Assembly (NCBI RefSeq): GCF_004340525.1
Contig: NZ_SLWX01000009.1
Location: 62,001 to 126,000 of the forward strand
Direction of reading: 5' to 3'
Source of the DNA: Chromatocurvus halotolerans
Lineage (GTDB): Bacteria; Pseudomonadota; Gammaproteobacteria; Pseudomonadales; Halieaceae
Length of the DNA stretch: 64,000 nucleotides
How positions within the stretch are numbered: position 1 is the first letter of the stretch; every line of letters starts with the position of its first letter. Below, in pieces: positions 18,008 to 28,991 of the stretch. The notes beneath the pieces were generated by a model. That model saw nothing but the letters and a program-made list of their open reading frames with translations. It did no database searches and had not been told where the DNA came from. Position numbers and translations under genes: made by a program.

Positions 18008-18676
18008 TTATTCTGCCGGGGCCCCCGCGGTGGCGGGGGCACAGACTTGCCGGAAGCCTGCCGCCACGAAGGGAATCATGTGGTCGTAGGCGGCCTGGAA
18101 ATCCGCCGAGCGACAGGTACCCCCCGACAGTTTGTCGATGCGCCCCGTCTGTGCCAGCGTGAGCGTAAGTGCGCCTGACAGGTTGTTGTAGCACCAGTAC
18201 AGGTTGTCGTCGCTGGCACCGGGCAGGGCCTTGCGCAGCGCGTCGATAAACTCCAGCACCAGGTCATCAAACAGCGATGACATCATCTTGGGGCCCCAGT
18301 AGGGCGAGTTGTTGATATAGGCGATCAGCGCCAGGTAATGGCGCCAGCCCGCGTCGCCGGTTTCCTGTGCCAGCTCCAGCGGCCGCAGAAAGGCCTCGAT
18401 AATCTGCTCCACGCTGGGTCCCTCGACCCCAGCCTCCCGCTGACAGCGCTGCAGCGCCTCGCGTCGCGATTCGTTCAGGTAGGCCGCGCGGCGCTCGAAC
18501 ACCGCCTTGAACAGGTCGAGTTTCTTGCCAAAGTGGTAGCTCGCCAGCGCCACGTCCACCCTGGCACTGGTCGCGATACGTCGCAGGGTGACGCCGTCAT
18601 AGCCGTGCAGGGCGAAGAGTTCCTCCGCAACATCCAGGATGCGTTCCCGCTTGCTGCGATTTCTGGCCACCGTCAT
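18008..18676 (-). CDS. TetR-family repressor of the SSS/TonB-receptor regulon
   Basis: 222-aa regulator. The N-terminal HTH is standard: RERILDVAEELFALHGYDGV, then TLRRIATSARVDVALASYHF. The C-terminal ligand domain (about 75-210) contains several Trp and Tyr residues (YINNSPYWGPKM, NLYWCYNNLSGAL). The ATG at 18676 is chosen since the HTH begins about ten residues later. The gene is divergent from the symporter gene and shares a 26-bp palindrome with it. Two more copies of the palindrome sit on the promoter at 23.1 kb, so it most likely represses both operons and itself until an effector binds. Effector unknown. Confidence 0.92.
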   Translation of the reverse strand: MTVARNRSKRERILDVAEELFALHGYDGVTLRRIATSARVDVALASYHFGKKLDLFKAVFERRAAYLNESRREALQRCQREAGVEGPSVEQIIEAFLRPLELAQETGDAGWRHYLALIAYINNSPYWGPKMMSSLFDDLVLEFIDALRKALPGASDDNLYWCYNNLSGALTLTLAQTGRIDKLSGGTCRSADFQAAYDHMIPFVAAGFRQVCAPATAGAPAE

Positions 18677-18708: not shown

Positions 18709-18737
18709 TTGCGTATTCAACACTTGTTGAATACGCT
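18709..18737 (+). promoter_or_regulatory. TetR operator O1 overlapping the symporter promoter
   Basis: Positions 18711-18736 form a perfect inverted repeat: arms GCGTATTCAACA and TGTTGAATACGC around a CT centre. A -35-like TTGCGT (18709-18714) and -10-like TACGCT (18732-18737) are 17 bases apart, so the operator fills the spacer. The site lies 34 bases upstream of the divergent TetR start codon. Binding would block the symporter promoter and probably TetR's own. Confidence 0.8.
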
Positions 18738-18765
18738 GTCGGAAAATAACACGAGCGCAGTGACG

Positions 18766-20229
18766 ATGACACCTGAATTGTTCAAATACCTGCTGGTTGG
18801 CGGCTACGCGCTGCTGGTCTACGGGCTGTCCATAATCGGCATGCGGCGCACAGATAGCGTGCAGGGCTTTTCCATTGGCAACAAGGACATGAGCCCGGTG
18901 GTGGTGGGTATCACGCTGGCGGCATCGATTGCCTCCACCGCGACCTTTGTCATCAACCCGGGGTTTGTCTACCAGCATGGCCTGTCTGCCTACCTGCATT
19001 TTGGCGTCGCCGGCTCGCTGGGCATTACCGCTGCTTTTCTGGTCCTGACGCGCGGGTTCCTGCGCCTGGGTGAGACGCACAAGGCCCTGACAATACCCCA
19101 GTGGATCTTCTACCGCTACAACCACCGCGGCTTCAGCCTGTTCTTCGCGTTCATCAATCTGCTGTCGGTGACCTTTGTGGTGCTGATCCTGGTCGGCTGC
19201 AGCCTGCTGGTGACGGGCCTGTTCCCGGTGGACCAGAAAACCGCCCTGGTCGGTGTGCTGCTGTTCGTCTTCTCCTACGTGCTCATGGGTGGCACCTACG
19301 CCCACGCCTACACCAACACCCTGCAGGGCATCATGATGCTGCTGGTCACCGTGCTGCTGTTTGTGCTCGGTGTGAAGTATTTCGAGGGAGATTTTCTAGG
19401 CTCTCTCGCGCGAGTGAGCGCTGACTATGCGTCGGCGTTCAACGAGGACAGCTCGCTCTACTTCGATTTCTTCTCCGTGTTTGTCAGCGGCTTCGTGGTG
19501 ACCTTTGCGCTCATGCTGCAGCCCCACATTCTCACCAAGGTGCTATACCTGCGCAGCGAGCGGGATATTGGCTGGTTTATCGGCACCACGGTGGTGGTGG
19601 GTGCGCTGTTCACGCTGATGCTCATGATCGGCTTTTACGCGCGTCTGGCGGGACTGGAGATCGATTCCCAGGACACGGTGGTGCGCGATTATCTGCTGCA
19701 CGAGTTCGGCACATCGGTCTGGGGCGAATACCTGCTGGTCTTCATTTTCGTCACGCTGCTGGCGGCGGGAATGAGCACCCTGGACGGCATCCTGGTGTCC
19801 CTGTCGGCCATGGTGGTCACGGATATCGTCAAGCCCTTTGCCCGCGAGGGCGGCAGCGATGGTCTGGCGCTATCGCGCTGGGTGCTGGTGGGGGTCGGGG
19901 TGATCGGGCTGGCGCTGGCGTGGAACCCACCGCCGCTGATCGGCCTGTTTGCGCAGAAGGGCGTCTACGGGCTGGCCGCCGCATCGCTGGTGCCGGTGCT
20001 GTTCGGGGTGCTGGTGAGGCGGCACATTCCCCTGTGGGTGGTGCTGGGTGCGGCGGCCATCGGGCTCGTGCTGCACCTGCTGTTCAACCTGGCGCTGGGC
20101 GTGGAGAATCCGGCGATCTCCGCCACCTATGGCATTCTTGCGTCGCTGGCCTTCGGGCTGATGGGATTGCTGGTGACGCGGCCGATTTCCGCTTACGGGG
20201 TCAGGCCCGAATCTGACCTGACTCCATAG
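18766..20229 (+). CDS. Sodium:solute symporter (SSS family)
   Basis: 487-aa integral membrane transporter with about 13 hydrophobic segments. Family features include the N-terminal YLLVGGYALLVYGLSIIGMR, the SASIASTATF-like ITLAASIASTATFVINPGFV in TM2 and the sodium-site region LAAGMSTLDGILVSLSAMVV. It carries a small organic solute with Na+ into the cytosol; the substrate could be a monocarboxylate or similar. The ATG at 18766 is 29 bases past the -10. The last residues RPESDLTP and the stop codon are encoded by a palindromic repeat (20197-20227), the same tail as in the hydrolase at 27106. Confidence 0.92.
   Translation: MTPELFKYLLVGGYALLVYGLSIIGMRRTDSVQGFSIGNKDMSPVVVGITLAASIASTATFVINPGFVYQHGLSAYLHFGVAGSLGITAAFLVLTRGFLRLGETHKALTIPQWIFYRYNHRGFSLFFAFINLLSVTFVVLILVGCSLLVTGLFPVDQKTALVGVLLFVFSYVLMGGTYAHAYTNTLQGIMMLLVTVLLFVLGVKYFEGDFLGSLARVSADYASAFNEDSSLYFDFFSVFVSGFVVTFALMLQPHILTKVLYLRSERDIGWFIGTTVVVGALFTLMLMIGFYARLAGLEIDSQDTVVRDYLLHEFGTSVWGEYLLVFIFVTLLAAGMSTLDGILVSLSAMVVTDIVKPFAREGGSDGLALSRWVLVGVGVIGLALAWNPPPLIGLFAQKGVYGLAAASLVPVLFGVLVRRHIPLWVVLGAAAIGLVLHLLFNLALGVENPAISATYGILASLAFGLMGLLVTRPISAYGVRPESDLTP
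20197..20227. repeat. GGGTCAGG palindromic repeat, copy 1
   Basis: Imperfect inverted repeat: GGGGTCAGGCC pairs with GACCTGACTCC (9 of 11). It overlaps the 3' end of the symporter gene and supplies its last codons and part of the TAG stop. Same family as the copies at 21021 and 27957. Confidence 0.8.
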
Positions 20230-20276
20230 GTCTGTGCCTCTTGTGAAAATGCGGACACAACCGTGTCAGGTTGCGC

Positions 20277-20305
20277 TTGAAATAAAGTAACTCTCTGAAT
20301 ATACA
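20277..20305 (+). promoter_or_regulatory. Putative sigma-70 promoter of the FAS1 gene
   Basis: TTGAAA (20277-20282) and TATACA (20300-20305) are exactly 17 bases apart in an AT-rich island. This leaves a leader of roughly 150 nt before the FAS1 start codon. By-eye call. Confidence 0.5.
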
Positions 20306-20466
20306 AATAAAAAAATACTTCTGTTGATATTTCCGGCGCACAATCGACTCGCAACCGTGAAGCGTAATCATCAGTGGCTTGCCGTGTTCTGAGGCGTTAT
20401 GACGCATCAGCAACCGGTGATGCCCTTCGAAACCTGTTCTTCATACCAGTGTCAAGGAGATCAAGC

Positions 20467-21006
20467 ATGTCATACAGAAAAACAATCAAGCAGTTCGTCC
20501 TCGGCTCCGCCACTGCAGTGGGCCTGATGGGCGGCGTGCAGGCCCAGGCCAATGAAGCCTTCGCCTCCTGCGTCTCAACGCCGCGTGCCGTATTCAACGG
20601 GAGTGTGGTTGATGCGGCAATTGCGACTCCGGAGCTGTCGACGCTGGTCGACGCCGTTGTTGCCGCCGGACTCGCCGATGCACTGGCCGAGACACAGGAC
20701 ATTACGGTTTACGCACCCACCAACGATGCGTTTGCCGCCCTGCCGCCGGGTGTCCTGGATGCGATCCTCGCGGATCCTGACGTATTGACGCAGGTCCTGA
20801 CTTACCACGTGTCCGCAGGTCGACGCGATCCGCGCCTTCACTGGTCCGCCGTACGGCGCAACACCCTTCTGGAAGGCCAGCGTGTCGCGTACGAGTTCGT
20901 GGATGGTCATACACGGGTGAATGGTGCTGCGGTGACCTGTCAGGGTGTGCGAACGGATAACGGTGTTGTCTGGCTGATCGACAGCGTGTTGCTGCCACAG
21001 TTCTAG
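20467..21006 (+). CDS. Secreted FAS1 (fasciclin) domain protein
   Basis: 179-aa protein: a signal peptide (about residues 1-29, GGVQAQA) and one FAS1 domain. The H1 box ITVYAPTNDAFAALP and the H2-like DNGVVWLIDSVLLPQ are clear, and LTYHVSAG lies between. FAS1 domains mediate cell adhesion or binding to surfaces and small lipids. Two or more Cys residues could form a disulfide in the periplasm. The ATG at 20467 has AGGAG 8 bases ahead. It has its own promoter and is followed by a perfect hairpin (21021), so it is likely monocistronic. Confidence 0.9.
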   Translation: MSYRKTIKQFVLGSATAVGLMGGVQAQANEAFASCVSTPRAVFNGSVVDAAIATPELSTLVDAVVAAGLADALAETQDITVYAPTNDAFAALPPGVLDAILADPDVLTQVLTYHVSAGRRDPRLHWSAVRRNTLLEGQRVAYEFVDGHTRVNGAAVTCQGVRTDNGVVWLIDSVLLPQF

Positions 21007-21020
21007 TCCCCACCCCTGCC

Positions 21021-21046
21021 GGGTCAGGTCCCTCGGGACCTGACCC
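21021..21046. repeat. GGGTCAGG palindromic repeat, copy 2
   Basis: Perfect 12-bp inverted repeat (GGGTCAGGTCCC / GGGACCTGACCC) with a TC centre, 14 bases after the FAS1 stop. There is no T-run, so it is a REP-type hairpin rather than a classical terminator, though it may protect or end the FAS1 mRNA. The rest of 21007-21334 shows no gene. Confidence 0.85.
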
Positions 21047-21334
21047 GCGCTTCAGCCGTCTTCACGCCAGCGGGCGTCCCCCAGCACTGCCCCGAATCCA
21101 CGATCTGGGGCACTTCTTCCATGACGGCACTCATGCGTGTCGACCCGGGTTTTACCGACACTGCGGAACCGCTGCGACCCACGTTCCGTGGCATGCCGCA
21201 GACCGGTGCTGGCGCCGCTTGTGGTATTCTCGGTACCGGCGATGTGTCATCACACTGCGCTAGCGTCAGCTCCGATCCGAACCCCAGGACAGTCAGATTC
21301 AAACCACCCTGCCTCATTAGACAGAAGGCCGCTC

Positions 21335-23017
21335 GTGATAGACAAGATCATCGCCATTATTGGCTTGCCCCGCTCCGGTACCACGCTGGTGACCTCGCTG
21401 CTTGCCGCACACCCCGACGTTGACACCTGTTTTGAGCCATGGAATCGCAATCGCGAGCAGCGTCCATCCCCCGAGCTCAGCCCCGACGCGCTGCTGACGC
21501 ACTTTGAACTTCCTCGCCGCGGCAATGCCCGGGTGCTGGTGCTCAAGGAAACCACGGTGGATTTTCTCGGTATCCAGTGGCTGGCGCGCTTTCTGCAGCA
21601 CAATGAAAGCCGCTGCCGGATTGATGTGCTGTGGACCGTGCGCTGTTATCGCCACTCCTATCTGTCGTTTATCCAGACCGGACGGGAGGAATGGGGGAAC
21701 GAGCAGATGACCCTCAACCCGCGCAGCTATACGCGCTGGGTTACGCGGTCGCGCGAGGCGACGCTGCTGCTTGCGGATCTGTATCGGCGCCATCCCTCCG
21801 CGGTGTACGCCTACGAGGCATTGACCCGCGCCCCGGAGCCGATGCTGCGCCGGCTGTGTGACGCGGTGCGCCTGCCATTTGTTCCGGAAATGCTGGATTT
21901 TCATCGGCTGACGCCGAAGGAGCATGTGCACGGTGATCGCGAGCTGGCCACGGATCCGCAGCCCGTGTCCGAGCGCAGCATCGACCGGCGCGAGCAGCAG
22001 TGGCTGGACGTCCACGACGCGCTCGAGGCCACCGAGATCAACGCGGTTCGCGAGCGCCTGGATGCGTTCTGGCAGGACACTGCGGAGGCAGAGCTGCGCA
22101 CTGGCGATGCCGCACTGGCGCCACTGCAGCGCATGATCGAGCGGTGGCCACGGCCGCTGGCTGGAGGGATAGATCATCAGGATTGCCGCATGGCCTTTGA
22201 CAGTCGCGCGGCCTGGCAGCAGTTCATGGCCCGGAACCGGCGTTTTTACCTGCCTGATGCCGTGAATGCAACGGCACAGGGGGTGCTGGAACAGGGCTTC
22301 CAGTTTGACGGCGACTGGGTACGCCCCTCGGCGATTGAGGGTCTGGGCGAGTCCTATCGGGAAGGGCTGAACGCGCATGGACTCAACTCGCGCCAGCGTG
22401 CGGTTTGGCATGAACTCAAGCGCGAATTGCGCGAGCGTGAGCTGTCGGCGGACTCCGCCCGTGTCTACGCGCCGGAGTACCTGAGCACACTCGCAAGGAG
22501 ACTGCGCGAGCACTATCCGGGCTTTCAGGGTTCTGAGTACCTTGAGGGCAAGCCCGTGCAGCGCCACTTCTCCTCGGTGCCGCACCAAGACCTGGGGCAG
22601 CTGAGTTTTGCCGAGCGCAGCTTCGACGCCGTGCTGGTGAATGACATCTTCGAGCATGTGCCCGACCTGCCGAAGGTGCTTGGCGAAATCCACCGCGTGC
22701 TCGACACCGGCGGGGTGCTGCTGTCCACTTTTCCCTTTGCCTTCAAGCGCGACGAGGGGATAGAGCGGGCGCGCCTGCGCGAGGACGGCAGTATCGAGCA
22801 CCTGCTGCCGCCGGAGTACCACGGCGACCCGGTCAAGCGCGAGGGCGTGCTGGTATTCACGATTCCCGGGTGGAACATCCTCGACCAGTGCCGTGCGGTG
22901 GGCTTTGCCGAGCCGCAGGTGCTTTTTCTGTGCCTGCCCTCCCAGGGCATCATCGGCGGCACCCCGGAGGGGGGGCTGGGCGGTATTATTATCCTGAGAG
23001 CACAACGCACCCGTTGA
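21335..23017 (+). CDS. Sulfotransferase - SAM methyltransferase fusion protein
   Basis: 560-aa two-domain protein. The N-terminal half is a PAPS-dependent sulfotransferase: IIGLPRSGTTLVTSLLAAHP is the 5'-phosphosulfate loop and DVLWTVRCYRHSYLSF resembles the 3'-phosphate region. The C-terminal part (about 390-555) is a class I methyltransferase of type 11: GSEYLEG at the SAM-loop position, SFDAVLVNDIFEHVPDLPKV and LGEIHRVLDTGGVLLSTFPF. A 100-residue linker joins them. The GTG at 21335 starts VIDKIIAIIGLPRSG and follows GAAGG. Possible substrates are a cell-surface glycan or small metabolite; unknown. The neighbours do not help, since both flanking genes look independent. Confidence 0.85.
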   Translation: MIDKIIAIIGLPRSGTTLVTSLLAAHPDVDTCFEPWNRNREQRPSPELSPDALLTHFELPRRGNARVLVLKETTVDFLGIQWLARFLQHNESRCRIDVLWTVRCYRHSYLSFIQTGREEWGNEQMTLNPRSYTRWVTRSREATLLLADLYRRHPSAVYAYEALTRAPEPMLRRLCDAVRLPFVPEMLDFHRLTPKEHVHGDRELATDPQPVSERSIDRREQQWLDVHDALEATEINAVRERLDAFWQDTAEAELRTGDAALAPLQRMIERWPRPLAGGIDHQDCRMAFDSRAAWQQFMARNRRFYLPDAVNATAQGVLEQGFQFDGDWVRPSAIEGLGESYREGLNAHGLNSRQRAVWHELKRELRERELSADSARVYAPEYLSTLARRLREHYPGFQGSEYLEGKPVQRHFSSVPHQDLGQLSFAERSFDAVLVNDIFEHVPDLPKVLGEIHRVLDTGGVLLSTFPFAFKRDEGIERARLREDGSIEHLLPPEYHGDPVKREGVLVFTIPGWNILDQCRAVGFAEPQVLFLCLPSQGIIGGTPEGGLGGIIILRAQRTR

Positions 23018-23090
23018 AAGCGACCTGATTGCCGGGCGTCACGGCGTCCGGCAATGCGCGGGATCATCCGCAAGCTCACCTTCGATCTGC

Positions 23091-23119
23091 TTGACAATTC
23101 AACATGCGTTGAATACGCT
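23091..23119 (+). promoter_or_regulatory. TonB-receptor operon promoter with TetR operator O2 in its spacer
   Basis: TTGACA (23091-23096) and TACGCT (23114-23119) are 17 bases apart. The spacer holds the inverted repeat 23097-23114, arms ATTCAAC and GTTGAAT around ATGC. The right half plus flank, GTTGAATACGC, is identical to that of O1 at 18711, as is the -10 hexamer. This is the same operator-in-spacer design as at the symporter promoter. Confidence 0.78.
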
Positions 23120-23126
23120 CAAGCCA

Positions 23127-23142
23127 TTCAACAACTGTTGAA
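23127..23142. promoter_or_regulatory. TetR operator O3
   Basis: TTCAACA-AC-TGTTGAA, perfect 7-bp arms, centred 29 bases downstream of O2, about three helical turns, and overlapping the expected transcription start. Matches the core of O1. Confidence 0.72.
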
Positions 23143-23160
23143 ACGCGGCCGAAGCGGTCC

Positions 23161-23216
23161 GGCCTGTGCGGCCCAGCCTACGCGGCCCGGCCTGTGCGGC
23201 CCAACCTACGCGGCCC
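23161..23216. repeat. Two tandem 28-bp repeats in the receptor leader
   Basis: Copy 1 (23161-23188) and copy 2 (23189-23216) differ at one base. Each begins GGCCTGTGCGGCC and ends CTACGCGGCCC. They lie in the predicted 5' UTR, 40 bases before the receptor start codon, and are GC-rich enough to fold. Confidence 0.85.
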
Positions 23217-23255
23217 GACCCAATAACGCATAATGCTCGACACAAGGACATCGCC

Positions 23256-25514
23256 ATGACACACAAGCCTGTTAGACAACCGCTCGTCCTCGCCACTGCG
23301 GTGGCTTCTGCGCTGTATCTGCCGACGCTGCCAGCGCTCGCCCAGAGTCCCGGTCTTTCCCTGGAGGAAGTGGTGGTGACCGCGCGTCGTCGCTCGGAAA
23401 ACCTGCAGGATGTGCCGATTGCGGTAACCGCGATCTCGGGCCTTGAGCTGAGACTGCGCGGCGCCTCTGATATCACGGAACTGGCGCAGTCCATACCGAG
23501 CGTGACGCTCGAGCCGTCGCGGGCCACCAACACGACGCTGACCGCCTTCATCCGCGGCATCGGCCAGCAGGACCCGCTGGCAGGTTTCGAACAGGGCGTG
23601 GCCCTCTACCTGGATGATGTGTATCTCGCCCGACCCCAGGGCGCCCTGCTGGATATCTACGATGTCGAGCGCATCGAGGTGCTTCGCGGTCCGCAGGGTA
23701 CACTTTACGGTCGCAACGCGGTCGGCGGTGCCATCAAGTACGTGACACGACGCCTGTCTAACGAACTGGAGGGCAGTGTTCGTGCCTCCTATGGTGACTA
23801 TGATCAGGTGGATCTGGTGGGCACCGTGTCTGTGCCGGTATCGGACACCTTCCGTGTGGGTGCGACCGTGGCCTCGTTTGACCGCGATGGCTTTGGCAAG
23901 AACCTCTTCACCGGCGGCGAACAGTACGACAAGGACATCTTCGGCTACCGCCTTAGCGCCGAGTTCGAGCCAACGGAAAACCTGTTGATCCGCGCCGCCT
24001 ATGACAACACCCAGGACGACTCTTCGCCGGTTGCAGGCTACCGGCCTTTCCCCGGCGCGGTCAGCGGCCAGCCGGTGCTGAACAACGTGCGCGACACCAC
24101 GGCGGGGGCCAGCGTTCTGCCGACCACTGCGGGTATCAATGGCAACAACGAGGTGCAGACCGAGGGCTGGTCCCTGTCCATCGACTACCAGCTCAATGAG
24201 CAGATTACCCTGCGCTCGATTACCTCTGCGCGGGAAGACTACACGGAATCCGTGATCGATTTCGACGGCCTCGCCGTGCCCGACTTCGATGCGCCGGTCA
24301 TCTACGACAACGAGCAGACCAGCCAGGAATTCCAGCTGCTGTTCAACAGTGATCGCTGGAACGCCGTGCTCGGTTACTACTACCTCGACGTCGAGGCGGC
24401 GAACGACTTTGATGTGGTGCTCGGACAGCTCGCCCCCGGCGGCATCACCGCCTACACCGGCGGTACGGTGAAAACCGAGGCCTGGTCGGCGTTTGCCGAC
24501 GTCACCTACAACCTCACGCCGCAGCTGTCGGTATCAGTGGGCGGCCGTTACACCGAGGATCAGCGCGATGCGGATATCTTCCGCGGTAACTATCTCGGGA
24601 CCGGTTCGCCCTTCCTCGGCAACGATAGCGCTGTGCTGCTGGCTGCGACCAGTGATTTCGAGGCCAGCCGGACGTTCTACGATTTCTCTCCACGGGTGAA
24701 CGTCAGCTACCTGCTGAACGACGACATGACCGTGTATGCGGGCTACAGCCAGGGCTGGAAGGCCGGCAGCTTCGATCCCCGGGGCGCCAACTTCGCCACC
24801 CCCGAGGTAGAGCGCGGTTTTGACGCCGAGGAGCTGGATTCCTTTGAGCTGGGCTTCAAGGCCACCTGGCTGGAGGGGCGGGCGATCACCAACATTGCCC
24901 TGTTCTACAGCGAGTATTCGGACATGCAGATTCCGGGGTCGGTCGGTGCGGACAGCGACGGTGATGGCGTCAATGACACCTTTGTCGGCACCGTCACTAA
25001 TGCCGCCGAGTCCACCATTTCCGGCCTGGAAATCGAGGGTAACGTGCTGTTGACCGAAAACTTCAGCATGCAGTTCTCAGCCAGCCTGCTCGACACCTCG
25101 ATTGATGAGTGGCTGGTGAACGGTGTTGATGTCTCGGACCAGCGCGCTATCCAGAACACGCCGGAGGAAATGGCGTTCATCGGCGCCACCTACGTGACCC
25201 CTCTGCGCGACGGTGACCTGCGCCTCATGGCCAACTGGTCCTACAAGGGCGACATTACCCAGTTCGAGTTGCCGGCGCCGGTCATCGACCAGGAGGCCTA
25301 CGACCTGATCAATGCCAGCGTGGTCTGGACCAGCATGGACGAGTCCTGGATGCTTGGCCTGCACGGCAAGAACCTGACTGACGAGGACGTGAAGACTGCC
25401 GGCTACTGTTTCGGTGACGGTGGCTGTCCGTCGAGACTGGGTCTTGAGAACAACACGACGGTGTTCTTCGCGCCACCGCGCACCTGGACGGCCACGGTCG
25501 AGTACCGCTTCTAG
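23256..25514 (+). CDS. TonB-dependent outer-membrane receptor
   Basis: 752-aa receptor that imports a substrate across the outer membrane using TonB energy. A signal peptide ends near LPALAQ, then the TonB box LEEVVVTARRRSE, the plug domain (QDVPIAVTAISG ... ERIEVLRGPQGTLYGRNAVG) and a 22-strand barrel ending TATVEYRF with the terminal aromatic. It resembles the large sphingomonad/Cellvibrionales class that takes up organic compounds rather than siderophores. The ATG at 23256 follows AAGGA. First gene of a TetR-controlled operon with the CoA ligase and hydrolase, which suggests an organic acid or ester. Confidence 0.94.
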   Translation: MTHKPVRQPLVLATAVASALYLPTLPALAQSPGLSLEEVVVTARRRSENLQDVPIAVTAISGLELRLRGASDITELAQSIPSVTLEPSRATNTTLTAFIRGIGQQDPLAGFEQGVALYLDDVYLARPQGALLDIYDVERIEVLRGPQGTLYGRNAVGGAIKYVTRRLSNELEGSVRASYGDYDQVDLVGTVSVPVSDTFRVGATVASFDRDGFGKNLFTGGEQYDKDIFGYRLSAEFEPTENLLIRAAYDNTQDDSSPVAGYRPFPGAVSGQPVLNNVRDTTAGASVLPTTAGINGNNEVQTEGWSLSIDYQLNEQITLRSITSAREDYTESVIDFDGLAVPDFDAPVIYDNEQTSQEFQLLFNSDRWNAVLGYYYLDVEAANDFDVVLGQLAPGGITAYTGGTVKTEAWSAFADVTYNLTPQLSVSVGGRYTEDQRDADIFRGNYLGTGSPFLGNDSAVLLAATSDFEASRTFYDFSPRVNVSYLLNDDMTVYAGYSQGWKAGSFDPRGANFATPEVERGFDAEELDSFELGFKATWLEGRAITNIALFYSEYSDMQIPGSVGADSDGDGVNDTFVGTVTNAAESTISGLEIEGNVLLTENFSMQFSASLLDTSIDEWLVNGVDVSDQRAIQNTPEEMAFIGATYVTPLRDGDLRLMANWSYKGDITQFELPAPVIDQEAYDLINASVVWTSMDESWMLGLHGKNLTDEDVKTAGYCFGDGGCPSRLGLENNTTVFFAPPRTWTATVEYRF

Positions 25515-25532: not shown

Positions 25533-27113
25533 GTGACAGTCTTTCCTTCTGAGGCCCCGCTGCTGCCCGAGATTCTTGCGCTCCACGGCAAGTGGCGGGG
25601 CAGCCGCGACGCGGTGATCTGCGGCGACGAGCGGCTCGACTGGCGCGCCTTCTGCGCGGCCAACCACCGCTTTGCCCACGGCCTCGCGGCACGGGGCATT
25701 CATCCCGGCGATCGCGTCGGCGTCGTCATGAGCAACGGGTTGCCGATGGTCCAGGCCCTGTTCGGTACTCTGGCCGCAGGCGCGGTCTCCGTGCCGCTGA
25801 ACCTGTCGGTCTCCGATGACGCGATGCTCGCCATGCTCGAGGACGCCGGGGTGCGCGCCCTGGTGGTCACGCCAGACCAGCGGCGACGGGTGGATGCCCT
25901 GCGCGACCGGCTGCCGGCGTCGCTGGTGCTGCTGCTGTGCAGTGATAACGATGGAGCGTATGCATGGGCTGATGGCGGGGCCGATGGCTGGGAGCGCCTG
26001 AGCGCCCTGTGCGAGGGTCAGCCGGCGCATCTGCCAGCCATCGCGCTGGACCCGGAGGCGCCGCTGAACATCATTTACAGCTCGGGCACGACCGGATTGC
26101 CGAAAGGTATTCTGCACACCCATCGAGGTCGGCGTGACTGGGCCTACGACCTGGCCATTGCGCTGCGTTACCACGGGGCAGCGAGAACGCTGCTGACCAT
26201 CGGGCTGTACTCCAACATCTCCTGGGTGGCGATGCTGTGTACGGTGCTTGCCGGTGGCACCCTGGTCGTGCATGAGCGCTTTGATGCGGAGGGTTTCCTG
26301 GATTCAGTGCAGGATCTGGGTATTACCCACACCGCGATGGTGCCGATCCAGTTCCAGCGCGTGGTCGCCGCCCAGCGCGAACGGCCCCGGGACCTGTCCA
26401 GCATGCAGGGCATGATGAGCTGCGGTTCGCCGCTGCACGAGACCCTCAAGCAGGCTATTTTCGCCGAGTTTCCCTGTGGCATTATCGAGCTCTACGGGTT
26501 GACCGAGGGCATTATCACAACGCTGGATCCGGAGGATGCCGAGGGTCGCTGGCAGTCGGTGGGAAGGCCGCTGATCGGAACAGATATCGCCATTATCGAC
26601 GATAATGATGAACATTGTGCGCCGGGGACTGCAGGCGAGATCGTCTCCCGCGGACGCATCACCATGCCCGGTTACTGGCAGCGGGACGCGGCCAATGCCG
26701 ATGCCTGCTACCGGGATGGTGATGGCAGGGTCTGGCTGCGCTCCGGTGATATCGGCTATGTGGATGCCGAGGGCTTTCTGTATATCGTTGATCGCAAGAA
26801 AGACATGATTCTCTCGGGCGGCCAGAACATCTACCCGCAGGATATCGAGGCCGAGCTCTATACCCACCCGGGTGTGGACGACGTCGCTGTTATTGGCGTG
26901 CCCAGCCGCCGCTGGGGTGAGACGCCGCTGGCGCTCGTGGTGGCGGCACAGTCGCTTGTGCCCGCGGAGCTGCTGGACTGGGCCAACCAGCGCCTGGGCA
27001 GGCAGCAGCGCCTGGCGGACCTGCTGCTGGTGGATGAGTTGCCTCGCAACCCGAATGGCAAGATACTCAAACGCGAACTGCGGCAACAATATGGAGAGCG
27101 CGTTTATGAGTGA
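25533..27113 (+). CDS. Acyl-CoA synthetase (AMP-binding family)
   Basis: 526-aa ligase that activates a carboxylic acid to its CoA thioester via an acyl-AMP. Motifs: A3 loop IIYSSGTTGLPKGILHTH, A5 ELYGLTEG, A7 WLRSGDIGYVDAEGF, A8 DRKKDMILSGGQNIYP and the C-terminal lysine in NPNGKILKRELR. The GTG at 25533 lies 18 nt after the receptor. The size fits medium-chain, long-chain or aromatic acid ligases; the substrate is unknown. Its stop overlaps the next start by 8 nt, so the pair is translationally coupled. Confidence 0.93.
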   Translation: MTVFPSEAPLLPEILALHGKWRGSRDAVICGDERLDWRAFCAANHRFAHGLAARGIHPGDRVGVVMSNGLPMVQALFGTLAAGAVSVPLNLSVSDDAMLAMLEDAGVRALVVTPDQRRRVDALRDRLPASLVLLLCSDNDGAYAWADGGADGWERLSALCEGQPAHLPAIALDPEAPLNIIYSSGTTGLPKGILHTHRGRRDWAYDLAIALRYHGAARTLLTIGLYSNISWVAMLCTVLAGGTLVVHERFDAEGFLDSVQDLGITHTAMVPIQFQRVVAAQRERPRDLSSMQGMMSCGSPLHETLKQAIFAEFPCGIIELYGLTEGIITTLDPEDAEGRWQSVGRPLIGTDIAIIDDNDEHCAPGTAGEIVSRGRITMPGYWQRDAANADACYRDGDGRVWLRSGDIGYVDAEGFLYIVDRKKDMILSGGQNIYPQDIEAELYTHPGVDDVAVIGVPSRRWGETPLALVVAAQSLVPAELLDWANQRLGRQQRLADLLLVDELPRNPNGKILKRELRQQYGERVYE

Positions 27114-28005
27114 ATACCGCGACGTTTGGTACCAGAGTCCCGACGGGCTGCGTCTGTACGCCCGGGATTACCCGGGGCCGGCGACCTCCGGGTTGCCGCC
27201 GGTGCTGTGCATGCATGGCCTGTCGCGCAACTCCGCGGATTTCGCGGGAATTGCCGCCACCCTGGCCGCGGATCGCCGGGTAATCGTGGCCGAACAGCGC
27301 GGTCGTGGCCGCTCCGACTACGACAGCAACCCGGCCAACTACACCCCGCTCACCTATGCGGACGACATGTTTCATCTGCTGGACACGCTGGCCATCAACA
27401 AGGTGGTGCTGATCGGGACCTCCATGGGCGGCCTGATGTCATTCATTATGGCGAGCCAGCAGCCCTCGCGTATCGTTGGGATGGTCATCAATGACATCGG
27501 ACCGGAGATCGACCCCAGGGGCCTGGCGCGCATTCAGAATTACGTCGGCAAGGTGGCGCCCGCGCGCAACTGGGACGATGCCGTGGCCCGCACCCGGGAA
27601 ATCAACGGCGAGGCCTTCCCCGACTACACGGATGACGACTGGCTGGCGTTTGCCCGGGCGCTGTATGTGGAGCGCGATGGTGTGCCGGTGCTTGCCTACG
27701 ATCCCGCAATCTCCAAGGCCATGACCGATGCGGATTCCGGCGCGGTGCCTCCGAATCTGTGGCCACTGTTCGAGGCCATTGTCGATATCCCGATGCTGGT
27801 GGTACGCGGCGAGCTCTCCGACATTCTCGCGGCGGATTGTGTCGCGCGCATGCGCGATATGGATTCCGACCTTCAGGTGGTGGAAGTGCCGAGGGTCGGG
27901 CATGCGCCCACGCTCATGGAACCGGTGGCGCTGCAGGCGATACAATCCTTTCTGGTGGGGTCAGGTCCGCATGGGGCTCGGCCCCATTCGGACCTGACCC
28001 CATGA
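27106..28005 (+). CDS. Alpha/beta-hydrolase fold esterase/lactonase
   Basis: 299-aa cytosolic hydrolase. HGLSRNSADF forms the oxyanion region, GTSMGGLMS the nucleophile elbow (Ser), RGELSDIL carries the acid and VGHAPTLMEP the catalytic His. A cap domain sits between. It could cleave an ester or lactone before CoA activation by the preceding ligase. The ATG at 27106 overlaps the ligase stop. The last 15 residues, ending RPHSDLTP, are read from the palindromic repeat at 27957 and look unlike normal protein; without them the protein would end near SFLV, as relatives do. Confidence 0.9.
   Translation: MSEYRDVWYQSPDGLRLYARDYPGPATSGLPPVLCMHGLSRNSADFAGIAATLAADRRVIVAEQRGRGRSDYDSNPANYTPLTYADDMFHLLDTLAINKVVLIGTSMGGLMSFIMASQQPSRIVGMVINDIGPEIDPRGLARIQNYVGKVAPARNWDDAVARTREINGEAFPDYTDDDWLAFARALYVERDGVPVLAYDPAISKAMTDADSGAVPPNLWPLFEAIVDIPMLVVRGELSDILAADCVARMRDMDSDLQVVEVPRVGHAPTLMEPVALQAIQSFLVGSGPHGARPHSDLTP
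27957..28001. repeat. GGGTCAGG palindromic repeat, copy 3
   Basis: Largest copy: outer arms GGGGTCAGGTCCG / CGGACCTGACCCC (13 bp, perfect), one mismatch, inner arms ATGGGGC / GCCCCAT and a TCG loop. It forms the 3' end of the hydrolase gene and contributes its stop region, then a Shine-Dalgarno AAGGAG and the next start follow. Confidence 0.9.
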
Positions 28006-28020: not shown

Positions 28021-28413
28021 ATGCAGGCCATCGACATCTGGCACGAGATTGTCGCCAGCAAGAATACGGCCCGTCTCGGGGAAATCATCTCTGACGACTG
28101 CGTGTTCCATTCGCCGGTGGTGCACACGCCCCAGGTCGGCAAACCACGCACCCTCATGTACCTCACCAGCGCCATGAGCGTGTTCAATGACACCTTCCGC
28201 TACGACAAGGAGGTGGTCACCAAAGACCATGCGGTGCTGGAATTCACCTGCACGGTGGACGGCATCGAGATCAATGGCGTCGACATCATGACTTTTGCGC
28301 CGGATGGCCGTATCTGCGAGTTCAAGGTCATGGTGCGGCCGCTCAAGGGCATGCAGATGCTGCATGCGCACATGGCAAAGATGCTAGAATCCATTGCTGG
28401 CGGAAAACACTAG
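28021..28413 (+). CDS. NTF2-like (SnoaL) protein
   Basis: 130-aa protein of the cone-shaped NTF2 fold: IDIWHEIVASKNTARLGEII at the start, then the strand-rich part with VFHSPVVHTP, VTKDHAVLEFTCTVDG and the final CEFKVMVRPLKGMQ. Members of this fold include ketosteroid isomerases, hydratases and cyclases; catalytic residues cannot be assigned by eye. It has a good AAGGAG before the ATG. It is preceded by the palindromic repeat but follows in the same direction in the receptor operon, so it probably works on the same compound. Confidence 0.85.
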   Translation: MQAIDIWHEIVASKNTARLGEIISDDCVFHSPVVHTPQVGKPRTLMYLTSAMSVFNDTFRYDKEVVTKDHAVLEFTCTVDGIEINGVDIMTFAPDGRICEFKVMVRPLKGMQMLHAHMAKMLESIAGGKH

Positions 28414-28427
28414 CGTCGAATACCCCC

Positions 28428-28991
28428 ATGACCCAGAGAATCATCGTAGGCATCACCGGCGCGTCCGGCATTGCACTTGGCGTTCGCGCACTGGAGCTTC
28501 TGCGCGCCGCGCAGGTGGAGACGCACCTGGTGATGAGCCGCTCGGCGGAACTCACGCTGCATTACGAAATGGAGATGTCCAGCGCCGAGGTGAAAGCACT
28601 GGCCAGTGAGGTTCATGCGGTAAAGAACATCGGTGCGTCCATCGCCAGCGGCTCGTTCATTACCGAGGGCATGCTGATTGCGCCCTGCTCTATCCGCAGC
28701 CTGTCGGAGATCGCGTCCGGTGTGACCTCTACCCTTCTCTCCCGAGCTGCAGACGTGGTGCTCAAAGAGCGGCGACGCCTGGTGTTGATGGTGCGCGAAA
28801 CCCCTCTGCATCTCGGTCACCTGCGCAGCATGACCCAGGTTACCGAAATGGGCGCGATCATCGCCCCGCCAGTGCCGGCGTTCTACAATCGGCCCGATTC
28901 CATCGACGCGATGGTCACCCAGAGCGTGGGGCGCGCACTGGACCTGTTCGGCCTGCACAGCGAGGCGGTATCGCGCTGGCAGGGTGAGTAA
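28428..28991 (+). CDS. ubiX: UbiX-family flavin prenyltransferase
   Basis: 187-aa flavoprotein that makes prenylated FMN, the cofactor of UbiD-type decarboxylases. The FMN-binding start IIVGITGASGIALGVRALEL, SFITEGMLIAPCSIRSLSEI and ERRRLVLMVRETPLHLGHL are typical. It closes the receptor operon, 14 nt after the NTF2-like gene. No ubiD-like gene is in this window, so it may serve ubiquinone synthesis or a decarboxylase elsewhere. The placement in a catabolic operon hints at decarboxylation of an unsaturated or aromatic acid, which is inference. Confidence 0.9.
   Translation: MTQRIIVGITGASGIALGVRALELLRAAQVETHLVMSRSAELTLHYEMEMSSAEVKALASEVHAVKNIGASIASGSFITEGMLIAPCSIRSLSEIASGVTSTLLSRAADVVLKERRRLVLMVRETPLHLGHLRSMTQVTEMGAIIAPPVPAFYNRPDSIDAMVTQSVGRALDLFGLHSEAVSRWQGE

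Follow-up and report, generated by a model that had tools for sequence, protein, structure and literature searches.

A PsrA/NicR-like TetR protein and three promoter-embedded palindromes outline a putative local uptake and catabolism regulon in Chromatocurvus halotolerans

The analysis of a 64,000-nucleotide stretch of the C. halotolerans genome (hereafter, the window) indicated that a locally encoded TetR-family protein of the PsrA/NicR type most probably represses an uptake and catabolism unit by means of three palindromes embedded in the promoters of the unit, a reading to which we assign a probability of roughly 0.88. As a conserved local repressor regulon of a known, ordinary kind, this assignment is well supported at the sequence level, and a literature search returned neither a description of the regulon nor anything relevant on receptor-coupled PHB use. 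The regulon provides a precise and testable list of operators and targets for a nutrient-acquisition unit that is conserved in marine Halieaceae and their relatives; the conserved genes gathered around a single sensor open a direct way to its substrate. The features of the region are compiled in table 1.

Table 1. Coordinates of the repressor, the operators, the promoters and the candidate target genes within the window
Feature	Positions	Strand	Details
TetR-family repressor	18008..18676	-	PF17939 (TetR_C_30; PsrA/NicR-like)
Symporter promoter	18709..18737	+	TTGCGT-17-TACGCT, O1 in spacer (counted on sequence)
Operator O1	18711..18736	.	12-bp perfect arms, core TTCAACACTTGTTGAA 18716-18731
Sodium:solute symporter (SSF)	18766..20229	+	PF00474 5.5e-32
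Receptor promoter	23091..23119	+	TTGACA-17-TACGCT, O2 in spacer (counted on sequence)
Operator O2	23097..23114	.	ATTCAAC-N4-GTTGAAT, 7-bp arms around 4 bp
Operator O3	23127..23142	.	TTCAACA-N2-TGTTGAA, 7-bp arms around 2 bp
TonB-dependent receptor	23256..25514	+	PF00593 5.7e-42, PF07715 5.1e-20
AMP-forming acyl-CoA ligase	25533..27113	+	PF00501 3.1e-73; nearest solved: fatty-acyl/feruloyl-CoA synthetases
Alpha/beta hydrolase	27106..28005	+	PF00561 4.8e-19; nearest solved 3bwx 5.7e-69
SnoaL/NTF2-like protein	28021..28413	+	PF12680 9.2e-11; probable operon member
UbiX flavin prenyltransferase	28428..28991	+	NF004685 2.6e-79; doubtful regulon member

The Palindromes Are Restricted to Two Promoter Regions

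The initial annotation had described one palindrome recurring as O1, O2, and O3, and all three copies were found where it had placed them, including the perfect 12-bp arms of O1, which reads GCGTATTCAACA-CT-TGTTGAATACGC. A whole-genome pattern search for TTCAACA-N2-TGTTGAA with up to one mismatch retrieved three sites in the 3.91-Mb genome, namely O1, O2, and O3, against a uniform-base expectation of about 0.6 per genome, and the reversed control pattern produced no match in the whole genome. The palindrome is accordingly not a motif that is common across the genome regardless of promoters: each of its three sites falls at the promoters that the annotation had named, where O1 and O2 overlap the −35/−10 elements of regulator-linked operons. 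Within the window, a search tolerating up to three mismatches yielded four matches, whereas 0.83 were expected from shuffled sequences. Two other matches in the same genome, TTCAGCAACTGATGAA and TTGGACACTTGTTGAA, differ from the pattern at two positions and were discarded, as their core is altered and no recognisable target lies behind them.

Counting on the window sequence also bore out the proposal that the palindrome lies within a 17-bp spacer, followed by the −10 hexamer TACGCT, at both loci. Both −10 hexamers are weak; neither the symporter nor the receptor promoter was listed by a consensus promoter scan, because TACGCT agrees with TATAAT at just three of six bases. Ahead of the receptor gene, the leader that follows O3 contains a GC-rich imperfect tandem repeat at 23145-23225 (GGCCTGTGCGGCCCAGCCTACGC...).

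The Sites Track the TetR Ortholog across Genomes

The comparative sample from the family comprised 140 Halieaceae genomes, 42 of which encode a TetR ortholog at about 63% identity or more, and 98 of which do not. A total of 127 sites was detected in the 42 ortholog-bearing genomes (mean 3.0) versus 39 in the 98 others (mean 0.4), and at least two sites were present in 39/42 of the former versus 6/98 of the latter (Fisher p about 1e-24, a value that exaggerates independence because of the kinship of the genomes). The association was consistent across genera; because related loci share ancestry, the counts do not represent independent events. Two genomes lacking the ortholog (G010 and G052) presented three one-mismatch matches each, which were treated as background, the mismatches breaking the TTCAAC/GTTGAA core.

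This distribution bears on the alternative that a different, global regulator recognizes the palindrome and that the neighboring TetR binds elsewhere. We consider it highly improbable, as three sites in the genome of the window are too few for a global regulator and the sites follow this TetR across the 140 genomes and, in another class, down to 52% identity. The palindrome is conserved at the promoter of tetR itself and at those of its predicted targets, and the local TetR is predicted to bind it.

Most regions fetched around the orthologs displayed the order tetR-O1-symporter-O2-O3-receptor-ligase-hydrolase, and O1 occupied the orthologous position in almost every relative. The unit reaches Spongiibacter, Zhongshania, Dasania, and Sessilibacter, some of which are without the ligase at that place, and the tetR-operator-target layout recurs across many marine bacteria, including gammaproteobacteria beyond Halieaceae. 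In one genome (G001), about 180 kb separate tetR from the receptor and ligase genes and from the operator pair, which has moved with these genes. In Hyphomonadaceae, in which the TetR identity is roughly 52-59%, palindromes precede the hydrolase and the receptor in many loci under a different gene order, either as single sites or as sites 16-17 bp apart. The operators stay with their target genes through moves and inversions, and the unit comprises a clean case of operators following genes through rearrangements. In Hyphomonadaceae, the unit (L186 3453-6953) has an MFS transporter replacing the symporter, and in several cases it also encodes a large protein containing a copper-monooxygenase-like domain.

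A natural deletion was observed in G024 (L195 6328-7389), in which the C-terminal half of TetR is retained with the hydrolase directly after it, and the DNA-binding half of TetR, the symporter, the receptor, the ligase, and all operators have been lost. As one deletion explains all of these losses, this genome was rejected as independent evidence for the link between TetR and the sites.

Promoter Geometry in Relatives Favors Repression

The promoter anatomy was inspected in 46 loci harboring the O2-O3 pair and in 55 loci for O1. A TTGAC motif starts seven bases before O2, sitting one base ahead of it, in 44/46 loci, extending to the full TTGACA in 37, and TAnnnT directly follows O2 in 40/46. 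Among the relatives, the −10 element takes the form TAnnnT and the exact TACGCT is not conserved. One of the two apparent TTGAC exceptions (L134) bears TTGACA-17-TATCGT on the opposite strand, in agreement with the inversion of its receptor gene. The second site lies 25-34 bp downstream of O2 in 45/46 loci.

The initial annotation had placed O2 and O3 about three helical turns apart; here, their centers are separated by 29 bp (2.8 turns), and the relatives usually exhibit 32 bp. A strictly phased cooperative binding or looping between O2 and O3 would find some agreement in 32 bp being the commonest spacing (20/46 loci), but the spread from 25 to 34 bp amounts to almost a full turn, and the single or closely spaced sites of Hyphomonadaceae are also at odds with strict phasing, which we therefore judge unlikely.

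At the O1 promoter, the TTG-17-TAnnnT geometry is kept in about half of the loci (29/55). In the Haliea group, the TTGAAA of O1 itself sits 17 bp before CAGAAT-like sequences, in which case O1 would overlap a possible −35 element instead of filling the spacer. In Hyphomonadaceae, the placement of the operator in the spacer is not kept and a TTGACA-like element is found further upstream, which would leave the operator nearer to the transcript start. What these placements share is that the operator overlaps the promoter core, an arrangement that speaks for repression by steric exclusion.

A different role for TetR, as an activator or mixed regulator that realigns the promoter from within the spacer in the manner of MerR-type regulators, would fit the location of the operators in spacers and the poor −10 hexamers, and PsrA has been described both as a repressor and as an activator of rpoS (PMC13104628). 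Nevertheless, the spacers already measure 17 bp, the optimal length, and the −35 of the receptor promoter is mostly a perfect TTGACA, so that no realignment would be needed; the position of O3 over the start region, where it would cover about +1 to +16 of the receptor transcript, suits blocking, as do the other promoter positions of the sites in Hyphomonadaceae. This role is thus very unlikely in our assessment, and repression remains the preferred reading.

Target Genes and the Limits of the Regulon

Downstream of the receptor promoter, the ligase gene begins 18 bp after that of the receptor and overlaps the hydrolase gene by 8 bp, and the next two gaps measure 15 and 14 bp; these spacings would fit a single transcript. 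The initial annotation had counted the repressor, symporter, receptor, ligase, hydrolase, NTF2-like protein, and UbiX as one regulon. Phylogenetic footprinting over dozens of species sustained the first five members and left the last two in question. The SnoaL/NTF2-like gene closely follows the hydrolase in some relatives only, and its membership is weakly supported, being less doubtful than that of UbiX. The latter is the sole flavin prenyltransferase of the genome (the other Flavoprotein match has a CoaBC-sized frame), the single UbiD is encoded elsewhere, and UbiX is located kilobases downstream in most relatives; on these grounds, a role for it in the pathway was set aside, and it probably serves ubiquinone synthesis.

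In the relatives, the receptor operators begin about 10-120 bp past the symporter stop. Here, 2.9 kb lie between the symporter and the receptor operators, occupied by a FAS1 gene and a sulfotransferase-methyltransferase fusion. This pair was found at that place in no other genome examined, a different, roughly 5-kb insertion being present in G047, and we interpret it from this comparison as a lineage-specific insertion. The annotation had also held that the FAS1 and fusion genes lack the palindrome, and none of the three genomic sites is indeed theirs, an absence that we attribute to their late arrival.

Some further features were recorded in this region. The fusion gene (21335-23017) combines a sulfotransferase-like N-terminus with a class I methyltransferase C-terminus. 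The sequence GGTCAGGCCCGAATCTGACCTGAC (20199-20222) overlaps the end of the symporter gene, and about 12 places in the genome carry REP-like palindromes of a similar kind (GGTCAGGTCCGAATCGGACCTGAC). The C-terminus of the hydrolase carries the peptide SDLTP, similar to the end of the symporter.

The Putative Substrate

The combination of a receptor, a sodium symporter, a hydrolase, and a CoA ligase suggests the import of an ester or oligomer, its hydrolysis, and the activation of the resulting acid. The imported compound is probably an ester or oligomer from which a carboxylic acid or a hydroxy acid is obtained; hydroxyalkanoate oligomers are one possibility.

More specifically, the regulon might serve the use of short-chain polyhydroxyalkanoate or 3-hydroxyacid oligomers, with the receptor taking up oligomers, the symporter, an intracellular oligomer hydrolase, and the CoA ligase acting along with it, and a secreted depolymerase being added in some relatives. 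We regard this as a tentative possibility, compatible with the repressor reading, which leaves the substrate open. Depolymerase-family proteins are joined to the unit in four loci, and all four exceed the cut-off of NF050058 (extracellular short-chain-length polyhydroxyalkanoate depolymerase type 1). In G047 (L190 1501-1553), a secreted depolymerase-family enzyme is encoded behind a second operator pair, which comes with TTGACA-17-CTGCAT; in L146, a homologue (62% identity) stands behind its own TTGACA-operator pair beside tetR, with a spacer of 18 bp; and in L163 and L164, the depolymerase-family genes come next to the hydrolase, after it. Against this, the substrate assignment draws on these four relatives, an operator was nearby only in G047 among the 30 depolymerase-like family loci fetched, and the fold family also contains feruloyl esterases. 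A type 1 depolymerase was looked for in the genome of the window, and none was found. In G047, a flavin monooxygenase gene is divergent to that of the depolymerase-family esterase. The broader proposition that TetR governs an undescribed, widespread regulon for the uptake of polyester-type (hydroxyalkanoate) oligomers via the TonB receptor, acting as a PsrA-related, dedicated acyl or hydroxyacyl sensor, appears rather doubtful.

Proposed Mechanism

In the repressor reading, a TetR dimer would occupy O1, O2, and O3 when the inducer is lacking. As O1 falls within the symporter core promoter and, at the same time, within the region shared with tetR, autorepression would also be expected. In the receptor operon, O2 separates the −35 from the −10 and O3 lies over the presumed start site, so that RNA polymerase would be sterically excluded. 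An inducer, for which an organic acid or acyl-CoA produced by the hydrolase and the ligase is the most likely candidate, would release TetR from the DNA; the receptor, symporter, ligase, and hydrolase would then be made together, and tetR would reset the system.

The Repressor Family and Comparison with Known Systems

The repressor combines an N-terminal TetR helix-turn-helix (Pfam TetR_N 3e-13, above the cut-off) with a helical C-terminal domain (TetR_C_30 1.7e-34) in an all-helical model, as expected of the TetR family, and the genome encodes no other TetR_C_30 protein. Among solved structures, NicR (5fhp/5fgl) and PA3006, which we take to be PsrA, come closest, at about 25% identity. The repressor falls in the PsrA/NicR-like TetR group. 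It scores 90.4 bits against the curated PsrA model, for which the cut-off is 300, and hence is not a PsrA equivalog. Likewise, the core CAAC-N4-GTTG does not conform to the PsrA operator C/GAAAC-N2-4-GTTTG/C, the two motifs being related but distinct. PsrA acts on genes of fatty-acid degradation in response to long-chain fatty acids; no beta-oxidation genes lie behind the three sites described here.

PsrA, the fatty-acid responsive regulator of Pseudomonas, shares the C-terminal family PF17939 with this repressor. In P. putida, its footprint on the rpoS promoter is TTCAAAC-N4-GTTTGAA, and it represses its own gene by occupying the promoter of that gene (PMC13104628); the former resembles the TTCAAC-N4-GTTGAA found here, and the latter the layout proposed for tetR. 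However, the half-sites are one base shorter here, and the large fatty-acid regulon of PsrA is replaced by three local sites with other target genes. NicR, the TetR-family regulator of nicotine/nicotinate degradation in Pseudomonas, provides the nearest fold match but has other targets, and no nicotinate genes were recognised in the unit. In the TetR/tetO system, a local TetR repressor has its operator inside the promoter and sterically blocks RNA polymerase. The divergent regulator and transporter genes with a shared operator, as well as the steric block that we propose, follow the same scheme, to which the system described here adds a second operon that carries two operators in tandem and includes an outer-membrane receptor.
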